Shown: in pieces, positions 49,485-53,592 of the stretch
How positions within the stretch are numbered: position 1 is the first letter of the stretch
Layout: each line of letters starts with the position of its first letter
From: Collinsella sp. TF06-26
Lineage (GTDB): Bacteria; Actinomycetota; Coriobacteriia; Coriobacteriales; Coriobacteriaceae
Direction of reading: 5' to 3'
Length of the DNA stretch: 64,000 nucleotides
NCBI RefSeq assembly: GCF_002232035.1
Contig: NZ_NKXR01000003.1
Location: 62,001 to 126,000 of the forward strand
Notes under the pieces: generated by a model
Database searches by the model: none
The model's input: only the letters and a program-made list of their open reading frames with translations
Told to the model about the DNA's origin: nothing
Made by a program: the position numbers and the translations under genes

Positions 49485-51686
49485 CTACTCGCTGTAGCGG
49501 GTGGCGATGGCAGCTCGCACCATGCCGGTGCTCATGAGGTACGTTACCAGGAAGTAGCCGCCGTAGGCTGCCAGGAAAATCGCACAGGTGAGGCCCACCG
49601 TGCCGCCGATGCTCATGTTGCCAAACGTGCTCACCAGCTCGATGATCACCTTGAGCGCCACAAAGGAGTGCGCCAGACCCACTGCCAGCGGGAACAGGAA
49701 GAACACCGCTTGCTGTGCCATCACCGAATGGCGAATCTGGCGGTCGTCACAGCCGATCTGCGCCAGCACGCGATAGCTGCGGCTGCCATCTGCCACGTTG
49801 GAGAGCTGCTGGATCGACAGAATTGCCGCGCATGCAACGACCAGTACAAAGCCGATGTAGATAGCCAGATAGCTAATCATGCCGTTCATCTGCGCTGCCT
49901 GCGTATATAGCTCGGAGCGTGTCATGAAGACTCCCCACGAACCCGGCTCCTTGCCGTCAACGAGCAGGTTGTCGAGCATAGTGTATTTAATGAGCTCATC
50001 GGCCTCGGCAACATCCATCCCTCGCTTGTAGTTAACGAGCAGGTTGCTGGCATACGGCTGCAGATTAAGCTGGGACAGCAGCTCATCGGCAACGACCACG
50101 GTACCGGGATTGCTACCGAGCCCCGAGTTGGCGATGGCCGCCGTGTCCTTGTCCGACTTATCGGTTGCGGGCTTGAGCTCATGCCCACCCAAGGTGAGGG
50201 TATGGCCGCCGGCCATATATTTGGTGTACAGGTCGCCCAGCTCACCGCCCATATCACACGTAAGCACGTACTGGTCGCGGCCAATGCTCACCGGCTCCTC
50301 GCCCATCATCTGGCGCAGCTTGTTGTACTGGCTCGCCGGCGTCACAAACAGGCCCATATCATCGGCATTGCTACCCTCGAGCACCTTGGGGAGCTTTTCG
50401 CCCATGGCCTTGCACATCTCGCCTGCAGCTACCGAGGGACCCGAGCCGCCAAGCGGGTAACTCAGATACGAATCGATCTGCACATGCTCACCGGCAACAT
50501 CGGCGATATTGACCTTTTTGCCGGTCTCGTCGTTGTTGTCCGCCGACTTGCGCTCGCCATGCCATGCAGCGTACAAATCGACCGTTGCATCGGCCAGCAC
50601 CATGCGATCGGCCTCAGACGGATTGACATACTCCTTGTAGTAGTCGAGCGTTTCGGGCGTGTAATAGACATACGTCTGAGACACGTCAACAGGGTTATAG
50701 CGCTCCAGGTTTTCGTTCATCACGTTGGCGATCGACATACCGCACGTCACCGAGGTGATGGCCAAAAACAGGATCATCGCGATGACGCCCATCGAAAAGC
50801 ACACCGTATTGACCTTGGCCGCAAGCTGGCGTACGGTAAACATATTGAGGCCGCGCCAATAGACGCTGCGCAGGCCCTGCAGCAGCTTGATAAGCATGCC
50901 CGAAAGGCCCCAGAACAGGGCAAAGGTACCCACCGTAACCATGGCCGTGGTGATACCAAACTGGTTCATGGCCTCCTGCAGCTTGGTATCGGTCGCGGTG
51001 AGCGGGAACCCGTCGCGCAGCAGACGGTAATAGGCCACGCCCACAAGCACCGCGCCCACAGCAAAGATGGCAATCGCGATCCAGGGGTTGCGTGTCTTGA
51101 TACTCTCGTTGCGACGCTCGGCACCCATAAGCTCGATGAGTTTGGTACGACGCACGGCGCGAAGGTTCAGCAGCAGCGTGAGCACAAACATTGCGAGCAT
51201 GCAGGCAAGGGTCAGGTTGAACGCATGCACCGAGAAGAAGAAGTGGAAATTGGCGATCTGCGTCTTGAAGAGTGAAGCCGTAAAGAACGTCATGAGCTGG
51301 GAAAGCCCCACGCCCAGCACAATGCCGGCGACAAAGGCGCCGACCGAAACGATCACCGTCTCGAGCGCCATGATCGTGGCGACGCGCCCGCGCCCCATGC
51401 CGAGCACCTGGTACAGGCCAAACTCCTTCTTGCGGCGTTTCATGATGAAGTTATTGGCATACACCATCAAAAAGGCCATGACACCGGCCAAAAAGTACGT
51501 CAGGTAACCGAGCATGCTGCCCATGAGCTCGGACAGTCCCTCCTCCTTGATGCCGGCAATGTCGACCTGCATCGAGACGGTATTGAAGGCATAGAAGACC
51601 GTGACACCCAGGGTGAGCGTCAGCAAGTAGACAAGGTAGTCGCGGCCGGCGCGGCGGACGTTGCCCCAAGCGAGTTTACAGAGCAT
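49485..51686 (-). CDS. BceB-like FtsX-family ABC permease
   Basis: A 733-residue protein with about ten membrane helices: one near residue 20, three at 55-180, two at 205-275, one near 300 and three at the C-terminus. A ~240-residue outer domain sits between the later helices. It starts [21 protein letters not shown], as in BceB/VraG-type permeases that remove or sense cell-wall-active peptides. The start is at ATG 51686, overlapping the ATPase end by 11 bp. No BceRS-type kinase pair is adjacent. Confidence 0.85.
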   Translation of the reverse strand: MLCKLAWGNVRRAGRDYLVYLLTLTLGVTVFYAFNTVSMQVDIAGIKEEGLSELMGSMLGYLTYFLAGVMAFLMVYANNFIMKRRKKEFGLYQVLGMGRGRVATIMALETVIVSVGAFVAGIVLGVGLSQLMTFFTASLFKTQIANFHFFFSVHAFNLTLACMLAMFVLTLLLNLRAVRRTKLIELMGAERRNESIKTRNPWIAIAIFAVGAVLVGVAYYRLLRDGFPLTATDTKLQEAMNQFGITTAMVTVGTFALFWGLSGMLIKLLQGLRSVYWRGLNMFTVRQLAAKVNTVCFSMGVIAMILFLAITSVTCGMSIANVMNENLERYNPVDVSQTYVYYTPETLDYYKEYVNPSEADRMVLADATVDLYAAWHGERKSADNNDETGKKVNIADVAGEHVQIDSYLSYPLGGSGPSVAAGEMCKAMGEKLPKVLEGSNADDMGLFVTPASQYNKLRQMMGEEPVSIGRDQYVLTCDMGGELGDLYTKYMAGGHTLTLGGHELKPATDKSDKDTAAIANSGLGSNPGTVVVADELLSQLNLQPYASNLLVNYKRGMDVAEADELIKYTMLDNLLVDGKEPGSWGVFMTRSELYTQAAQMNGMISYLAIYIGFVLVVACAAILSIQQLSNVADGSRSYRVLAQIGCDDRQIRHSVMAQQAVFFLFPLAVGLAHSFVALKVIIELVSTFGNMSIGGTVGLTCAIFLAAYGGYFLVTYLMSTGMVRAAIATRYSE

Positions 51687-52461
51687 CGGAGCCCTCACCG
51701 CCCATCATGGCAACGACCTCCATAATGCGGTCGAAGAACTCTCGGCGGTCGGTGTCGCCGCGGCGCAGCTCGGTGAAGATCTTGCCGTCGCGAATAAACA
51801 GCACACGGCTCGTGTAGCTGGCGGCAAAACTGTCGTGCGTAACCATGAGCACGGTGGCGCGCAGGCGGCGGTTAAGGGCCTCCAGGCTCTCGAGCAGCAG
51901 GCGGGCGCTCTTGGAATCGAGGGCGCCGGTGGGCTCGTCGGCCATGATCATAGTGGGGTCGGTGACGAGCGCGCGAGCCGCGGCAACGCGCTGCTGCTGG
52001 CCGCCGGACATCTGGTAGGGATACTTGTCGAGCACCTGGCTAATGGACAGGCGCGCGGCCACGTCCTGCACGCGGGTCGAGATCTCTGCCGAGTTTGTGC
52101 GGGCGATGGTGAGCGGCAGGGCGATGTTCTCGCGCGCCGTGAGCGTATCGAGCAAGTTGGAGTCCTGGAAGATAAAGCCCAGCTCCTCGCGGCGGAACTG
52201 CGAAAGCTTGGCCTGCTTCATGCGCGTCACGTCCTGGCCGTTGATGCGGATGGTGCCACTCGTGGCGCTATCGATGGTCGACACGCAGTTGAGCAACGTC
52301 GACTTGCCCGAGCCCGAGGCGCCCATGATGCCGACGAATTCGCCGCGGTTGACGGTAAAGCTGACATCGTTGAGCGCGCGGGTCACGTTGCCCAGTGCTC
52401 CATATACCTTTTCGAGATGCGCGACCTCCAGTACCGGGGTCGCCGTTTGCGTGGTTTGCAT
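51676..52461 (-). CDS. BceA-like ABC ATPase
   Basis: A 261-residue ATPase. Walker A is GASGSGKST, the signature [15 protein letters not shown], and Walker [16 protein letters not shown], all of the MacB/BceA class. The start follows AAAGGACTCGGT. It is operonic with the permease downstream, giving a complete exporter likely aimed at antimicrobial peptides or similar compounds. That substrate is inferred from family only. Confidence 0.9.
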
Positions 52462-52605: not shown

Positions 52606-53592
52606 TTGAAGACTGTTCATGTTGCCGCTGGGATCATTCGCAAGGAAGGATCTGACGAGCTGCTTGCCGTGCAGCGCGGCTACGGCAACATGCAGGGACT
52701 ATGGGAGTTCCCGGGCGGCAAACTTCTGCGCGGCGAGACACCCGAAGACGCCGTGCGCCGCGAGCTTATGGAAGAGCTACAGGTAAAAGTCACCAACCTG
52801 CGTGATTTCTACACCGTTGAGTATGACTACCCCGATTTTCATCTCTCCATGGAGTGTTACTACTGCTCGCTCGCCGATGAATCCGATGAGCCCCAGAAAC
52901 ACGACCGCCAGCTTGATATCCGCTGGATTCCACGCACCTCGCTTGCCACGGTGGAATGGATGCCCGCCGACAAGGGGCTCATTGATGCTCTGATTGAGTT
53001 AAAGGAAGATCGGCTTGAGGCAAGCTCCGCCGATGACACCGCGCCCAACACAACCGACAAACCCGCCACCAAACCCAAGCGCGCACCTAAACGCCGCAGC
53101 AAAAAGCGTCCCAAGCCCGGTCTGCTCGACGGCATCGATACCTCGGACCTCTCCGCTGACGAGCGCGAACTGGTCCGCCGTCGCGCCGCCATCAAAAAGT
53201 CCATGAAGGGCAACAAGCGCGCCAACACCAAGCCCGAGCTGCTCGTACGTCAGCGCCTACGGGCCGCGGGCCTTACGGGCTATCGTTTGGAATGGAAGGT
53301 ACCCGGCAAGCCCGACATCGCCTTCCCCGGCCGCAAGATCGCCATCTTCGTCAACGGTTGCTTTTGGCACCGCTGCCCCAAGTGCAACCCAAGCCAGCCC
53401 AAGCGCAACGTTGAGTTTTGGGAGGCAAAGTTCCGTCGCAACGTCGAGCGCGACCGTGCTGCTGTGGCAGCGCTCACTCAAATGGGCTGGACGCCCATAA
53501 CCATCTGGGAATGCGAACTCAAAAAAGACCGCATCGACGCCACGATGGAAAAGGTCATCGAGCAGGTGCGCGCCACAGAGCCGCAGCGCTAA
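52606..53592 (+). CDS. Fusion of a MutT-type NUDIX hydrolase and a Vsr mismatch endonuclease
   Basis: A 328-residue two-domain protein. Residues 1-135 are a NUDIX hydrolase with the Nudix box at 38-60 (GKLLRGETPEDAVRRELMEE) and the WEFPGGK lead-in of MutT enzymes, which remove 8-oxo-dGTP. Residues 136-198 are a Lys/Arg/Pro-rich linker. Residues 199-325 are a Vsr endonuclease: NTKPELLVRQRLRAAG, PGKPDIAF with catalytic D237, VNGCFWHRC and WECELKKD. Vsr nicks T:G mismatches left by cytosine deamination. It starts with TTG after GAGAGAGGG. No cytosine methylase is nearby. A fused pool-cleaning and mismatch enzyme is unusual. Confidence 0.88.
   Translation: MKTVHVAAGIIRKEGSDELLAVQRGYGNMQGLWEFPGGKLLRGETPEDAVRRELMEELQVKVTNLRDFYTVEYDYPDFHLSMECYYCSLADESDEPQKHDRQLDIRWIPRTSLATVEWMPADKGLIDALIELKEDRLEASSADDTAPNTTDKPATKPKRAPKRRSKKRPKPGLLDGIDTSDLSADERELVRRRAAIKKSMKGNKRANTKPELLVRQRLRAAGLTGYRLEWKVPGKPDIAFPGRKIAIFVNGCFWHRCPKCNPSQPKRNVEFWEAKFRRNVERDRAAVAALTQMGWTPITIWECELKKDRIDATMEKVIEQVRATEPQR

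Follow-up and report, generated by a model that had tools for sequence, protein, structure and literature searches.

The analysed window, a stretch of 64,000 nucleotides from a genome of the gut bacterium Collinsella, contains a gene encoding a NUDIX-Vsr fusion protein of 328 aa (52606..53592, + strand; TTG start, stop codon 53590-53592), and an open reading frame lies at exactly these positions. The N-terminal NUDIX hydrolase domain (52606..53001, +; residues 1-132; PF00293, model pLDDT about 96) includes a Nudix box of the form G-x5-E-x7-RE-L-x-EE-x-Q-V (52717..52785, +; residues 38-60). It is followed by a basic, low-complexity linker (53002..53172, +; residues about 133-189) and a Vsr mismatch-endonuclease domain (53173..53580, +; residues 190-325) that matches TIGR00632 and the structure 1cw0. 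A divergently oriented gene for an ABC transporter ATPase (51676..52461, - strand) adjoins the fusion, an arrangement conserved in Collinsella-type genomes.

According to the Pfam search the protein comprises a NUDIX domain at residues 5-123 (E 8.7e-19) and a Vsr domain at residues 196-256 (E 4.4e-17). The structure predicted from 88 related sequences consists of two folded domains (mean pLDDT 90), with a disordered part of the linker at residues 145-159 (pLDDT < 50); this model was used in place of one made from 7 sequences, which was poor (pLDDT 57). Based on the alignment the linker is nearly missing in some species and longer than 100 aa in others. The first-pass annotation had placed a NUDIX and a Vsr domain in one open reading frame and described the segment joining them as basic. 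The former is borne out by Pfam, TIGR00632 and phmmer, and the linker is likewise real, occupying residues about 133-189 and being disordered by pLDDT. Since the NCBI annotation of the Collinsella protein names Vsr alone, the NUDIX half is hidden in the present annotation.

The Vsr half exceeds the curated cut-off of the NCBIfam model TIGR00632 (108.2 bits, cut-off 97.85) and that of the Pfam model PF03852 (62.1 bits, cut-off 27), and phmmer matched it to the E. coli Vsr 1cw0 with an E value of 6e-18. In the alignment with 1cw0 the catalytic D51 of E. coli Vsr corresponds to D237 (53314..53316, +), and H69 and D97 correspond to H255 and D283, so that the catalytic residues, which the first-pass annotation had named as the point of comparison with E. 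coli Vsr, are intact. The aromatic wedge residues F67, W68 and W86 are represented by F253, W254 and W272, and counterparts of K89 and M14 are also present. The motif GCFWHRCPKC (53356..53385, +) combines the wedge residues F253 and W254 with H255 and the putative zinc ligands C252, C257 and C260; it is invariant in the Collinsella alignment except for F253 (Y in one row) and the variable K259. We take the roles of these residues to be those of their counterparts in the E. coli 1cw0 structure.

While the domain and the residues listed above are common to the fusion and E. coli Vsr (1cw0, 1vsr), the fusion protein differs by the attached NUDIX domain, by an apparent Cys4 zinc site (putatively C252, C257, C260 and C303) and by an N at the position of H64, as in most of the relatives collected. 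It also differs in its setting, with no dcm partner in the genome and no MutS in the genus. Judged from its sequence, the Vsr half probably nicks T:G mismatches.

Conservation in Collinsella and related genera

Both domains are encoded in a single open frame in 42 of the 43 Collinsella genomes, several of which are assembled in 1-3 contigs. The two doubts raised in the first-pass annotation, a missed stop and a fusion limited to one sequence, were both examined and neither holds. The single open frame in 42/43 genomes rules out a missed stop or an assembly artefact, and a strain-unique fusion is ruled out by the genus-wide presence together with a second fusion in Prevotella. The proposal that two mutation-avoidance domains are genuinely fused is supported by the occurrence of the fusion in these genomes and by the intact catalytic residues.

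The only loss seen in the genus concerns G024, the sole Collinsella genome among the 43 without the Vsr half. Furthermore, the fusion was found in sister genera of the Coriobacteriaceae, one genus (g5) having a solo Vsr. The divergent ABC transporter adjoins the fusion in all sampled Collinsella-type loci, and a genome of a more distant genus (G168, genus g6) has the fusion without this neighbour. In seven C. aerofaciens-like sequences dN/dS was 0.021 for the NUDIX domain, 0.031 for the Vsr domain and 0.18 for the linker.

A mobile-element origin was rejected, as none of the phage records covers 80% of the fusion query and the one full-length match in the plasmid collection is a Collinsella replicon of 0.9 Mb. 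G042 is the one Collinsella genome in which a C5 methylase gene was seen directly 3' of the fusion, in the same orientation and at a distance of a few hundred bases (L125:3790-6180).

Cytosine methylases, mismatch repair and GC content

The first-pass annotation had stated that no cytosine methylase is nearby. This is right and extends to the whole host genome, which is 99.97% complete and in which a search for a C5 methylase elsewhere gave no PF00145 match. PF00145 is also absent from 14 of the 43 Collinsella genomes, among them the single-contig genome G002. MutS_V was found in none of the 42 Collinsella genomes searched; NucS_C is missing from the host genome, and its matches within the Coriobacteriia are at most weak and partial. 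These searches of the host lineage agree with the reported absence of NucS and MutS-MutL from all analysed Coriobacteriia (PMC5290159).

Counted by a proxy threshold of E < 1e-38, Vsr is present in 152 of about 189 Coriobacteriales genomes (the total being the count from the genome listing), 50 of which lack PF00145. Outside the order, each of the 17 genomes with Vsr also encodes a C5 methylase. The uncoupling is only partial, since Vsr and C5 methylase are still associated among the Coriobacteriales (67% vs 32%, P 1.6e-4). Caulobacter likewise has a Vsr, VsrA, whose gene is not linked to one for a cytosine methylase, the methylase ScmA being solitary (PMC12907096). In contrast to the fusion and its host, VsrA has a working C5 methylase as partner, MutS is present in Caulobacter, and no NUDIX domain has been reported for VsrA (PMC12907096).

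In the Coriobacteriales samples (L120-L218, mostly stretches of 10-20 kb) the mean GC content was 0.526 without Vsr (n=35) vs 0.634 with Vsr (n=44). A genus-level model with genome size and family as covariates gave a Vsr coefficient of +0.091 (t 6.2). Within genera, GC is lower without Vsr in g1, g10, g11 and g13, the drop being absent or tiny in g16 and g21, and the Collinsella genome without the fusion, G024, has a GC content of 0.486 vs about 0.60. The lower GC without Vsr fits the direction expected of a T-specific T:G repair; it is correlational, and genome reduction could give the same picture. As to a tetranucleotide signature of Vsr action, CTAG is low in most samples, both with and without Vsr. 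Due to the strong difference in GC between the two sets, their oligonucleotide differences are unreadable.

These data bear on the reading that the Vsr of the Coriobacteriales is now a general, methylation-independent T:G nickase standing in for mismatch repair, and that a NUDIX pool-cleaner was gained in the Coriobacteriaceae. We consider this rather unlikely. The absence of MutS_V (0/42 Collinsella), the weak partial NucS_C matches, the published absence (PMC5290159), the 50 Vsr-bearing genomes of the order without PF00145 against none of 17 outside it, and the lower genus-level GC without Vsr all point towards such a role. However, Vsr and C5 methylase remain associated within the order, and the GC effect, besides being correlational, is confounded by reductive evolution, comes from short samples and is little or none in g16 and g21. 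Furthermore, a nickase acting on T:G alone has no means of distinguishing the template from the newly made strand, and this is a difficulty where replication errors are concerned.

It seems distinctly unlikely that the Coriobacteriales, lacking MutS-MutL and NucS, use their resident Vsr as a methylation-independent T:G endonuclease which in the Coriobacteriaceae is coupled to a cleaner of the dNTP pool. If true, mismatch repair would have a third, so far unrecognised route, based on Vsr, which would also push genomes towards GC. With the fusion, the Coriobacteriia, a class reported to be without a known mismatch-repair system, have a mismatch nuclease under strong constraint, and the question of mismatch repair in this class thereby becomes directly testable.

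Substrate of the NUDIX domain

The catalytic residues R52, E53, E56 and E57 of the NUDIX domain are intact and G38 and E44 are present; the last G of the Nudix box is replaced by Q. The first-pass annotation had assigned 8-oxo-dGTP as substrate. In E. coli MutT, the residues R78 and N119 recognise 8-oxoguanine. In the alignment columns these two positions are occupied by F78 and D122 in the fusion, and F and D are likewise found there in 3GWY. E. coli MutT, an 8-oxo-dGTPase, thus shares the fold subfamily, the catalytic residues and 34% identity with the NUDIX half, but differs from it at R78 and N119.

Overall similarity places the domain close to both enzymes. A phmmer search of the PDB matched it to MutT and 3GWY with E values of 1e-14 to 1e-15, 3GWY (60.1 bits) being narrowly the best NUDIX match ahead of MutT (57.5 bits). 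With a profile of the Collinsella NUDIX domains one MutT chain scored 84.3 bits, 3GWY 76.8 bits and E. coli MutT 74.0 bits. The NCBIfam equivalog model for MutT (TIGR00586) outscored the one for NudG (PRK10546), both remaining below their cut-offs (83.3 bits, cut-off 97.9, and 58.8 bits, cut-off 156). The structural search retrieved fold matches to MutT, 3GWY and MutT2 with 5mdCTP, all of the matches listed covering the NUDIX half, and with Z scores of 20.1 for MutT vs 19.7 for MutT2-5mdCTP these two are not separable.

The 3GWY protein of Bacteroides fragilis (Q5LBB1) was reported to hydrolyse 5-Me-CTP, 5-Me-dCTP and 5-hydroxymethyl-dCTP with a kcat/Km near 5e6 M-1 s-1, its activity on canonical NTPs being much lower (PMC5158307). 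It resembles the NUDIX half of the fusion in its fold, its Nudix box and the F and D at the MutT positions 78 and 119, but it stands alone, shares only 31% identity and is slightly outscored by some MutT chains in the Collinsella profile. E. coli NudG/Orf135 and the mycobacterial MutT2 (5zro, 5mdCTP-bound), both active on 5-Me-dCTP, are small MutT-like NUDIX enzymes which have, as the fusion does, a D at the position of N119; they are 29-35% identical and not fused to Vsr.

The NUDIX domains linked to Vsr in Bacteroidales scored 89.7 and 99.4 bits to 3GWY vs 55.2 and 62.9 bits to MutT, an excess of 35-37 bits. The chain 5x1x reached 91.0 bits with one of them (L077). Since 3GWY is the assayed relative closest to these versions and its base-pocket residues are common to the fusion, both halves of the fusion may act on 5-methylcytosine. 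Based on the pocket residues F and D and on the genomic company of the domain, a C5-modified dCTP is favoured over 8-oxo-dGTP as its substrate.

The competing assignment, in which the NUDIX domain is a MutT clearing 8-oxo-dGTP, Vsr repairs T:G and the fusion merely co-expresses two independent antimutators, appears possible, if unlikely. Because the Collinsella profile ranks some MutT chains slightly above 3GWY, with MutT chains overall scoring about as well as 3GWY, 8-oxo-dGTP may still be the substrate in Collinsella, and the NCBIfam MutT score of 83 bits, though below the cut-off, points the same way. It is further suggested by the host's NUDIX complement, in which the domain of the fusion is the only MutT/NudG-type NUDIX found, and by the presence of a MutY-like protein. 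On the other hand, the host is a strict anaerobe, the two recognition residues of MutT are replaced by F and D, and the linkage of this NUDIX clade to Vsr, to EcoRII-type C5 systems and to McrBC has no obvious 8-oxoguanine logic. The 8-oxo-dGTP activity proposed at first is thus possible, as a MutT chain tops the Collinsella profile, but with F and D at R78 and N119, as in 3GWY, it is not established.

By eye, one of the host's other two NUDIX proteins is ADP-ribose-pyrophosphatase-like and one is another NUDIX. An open reading frame of 373 aa in the host genome (L136:1450-2571, - strand) has a C-terminal NUDIX domain and an unassigned N-terminal region. The MutY-like protein of the host (L137:1030-1935, 301 aa) scores below the MutY cut-off and apparently has no C-terminal NUDIX-like domain.

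Recurrent NUDIX-Vsr linkage and proposed function

A second fusion of the two domains was found in Prevotella (L028). The strongly supported branches of the NUDIX tree require the fusion state to have changed twice, in the Coriobacteriaceae and in Prevotella L028, so that on this sequence phylogeny, in which the reference enzymes could not be placed due to long branches, the Prevotella fusion is independent of that in the Coriobacteriaceae.

In an even sample of Bacteroidaceae (the family of G043), NUDIX and Vsr genes lie within 5 kb of each other in approximately 9 of the 26 genomes holding both, among the matches listed, compared with 0.11 expected from random placement. This null model is lenient, given that defence islands may attract the two genes alike. 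In two loci (L031 and L090, the latter in G348) the genes are in frame with each other and separated by a single stop. Compact same-strand clusters of a C5 methylase, an EcoRII-like enzyme, NUDIX and Vsr with overlapping frames are present in L077 and L081, in which both orders of NUDIX and Vsr occur, and in L031 the pair likewise lies with genes for both enzymes. For the EcoRII-like enzymes of L077 and L031 the domains were confirmed with Pfam, whereas that of L081 was assigned by sequence likeness. In L052 an AAA-McrBC pair is followed by Vsr and NUDIX.

The restriction genes in these loci would suit a defence function, which the first-pass annotation had considered for the Vsr part and in which the NUDIX domain would drain the C5-modified dCTP of phages with modified cytosine while the nuclease, assisting restriction, cuts their DNA. 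In Collinsella such a role appears very improbable. The Bacteroidales pair does sit in EcoRII-type and McrBC loci, travelling with restriction systems, and 3GWY also hydrolyses 5-hydroxymethyl-dCTP. In Collinsella, however, the gene is core, syntenic with a non-defence neighbour, the ABC transporter, and under strong constraint (dN/dS 0.02-0.03 in both domains). In the flanks compared, no restriction genes were seen beside the Collinsella fusion except in G042, and the phage and plasmid searches gave only the 0.9 Mb Collinsella replicon as a full-length match. The PADLOC model PDC-S07 matches residues 1-132 (1.2e-37), but 99% of Enterobacter genomes are reported to contain a match (PMC12851794); the model therefore looks general rather than a defence marker, and its match was set aside as defence evidence. 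PDC-S07 picks up MutT-like NUDIX proteins at large, and defence counts that include it are probably too high.

We also consider it quite improbable that the fusion arose by chance or hitchhiking and has no joint function, each domain working alone. The unconserved sequence and length of the linker would be consistent with this, whereas two independent fusions, the repeated adjacency in both gene orders and the retention across the family, with a single Collinsella loss seen (G024), argue against it. Shared gathering in defence islands may account for part of the co-occurrence of NUDIX and Vsr. The fusion, its independent recurrence and the repeated operon linkage taken together argue that the clean-up of modified dNTPs and the nicking of T:G mismatches belong to a single process, for which the avoidance of 5-methylcytosine is the simplest reading.

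In our estimate there is about an even chance that the fusion is a chromosomal housekeeping enzyme of mutation avoidance with two functions, both halves of which address 5-methylcytosine and its deamination product. The N-terminal NUDIX domain would hydrolyse a non-canonical dNTP, most likely 5-methyl-dCTP, to the monophosphate before it is used by the polymerase. The C-terminal Vsr domain would then act on T:G mismatches arising from what escapes and deaminates, nicking 5' of the T and allowing C:G to be restored. One reaction would precede DNA synthesis and the other follow it, with the flexible basic linker tethering the two domains.

This assignment to 5-methylcytosine is favoured by the kept catalytic residues, the low dN/dS, the synteny, the recurrent linkage and the 3GWY-like pocket. 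It is weakened by the missing native source of 5-methylcytosine, as the host has no C5 methylase, and by the fact that broad-specificity enzymes, too, can have a D at the position of MutT N119. The confidences attached to the several readings overlap, since a stand-in role in mismatch repair can hold together with either NUDIX substrate.

Both domain families are known; the new part is their joined architecture and its setting, and a literature search of incomplete coverage found no report of a Vsr-NUDIX fusion. With Vsr, the small NUDIX enzymes that hydrolyse 5-Me-dCTP gain a concrete genetic partner.

The EcoRII-type C5 loci with Vsr and NUDIX extend over L077:3594-6887, L081:3430-6775 and L031:2338-7035. 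The McrBC-like genes directly before Vsr in L052 (L052:1462-5253) may represent a further 5mC-dependent system, and the same may apply to L062 and L079, in which large proteins without a Pfam match adjoin or lie near Vsr.
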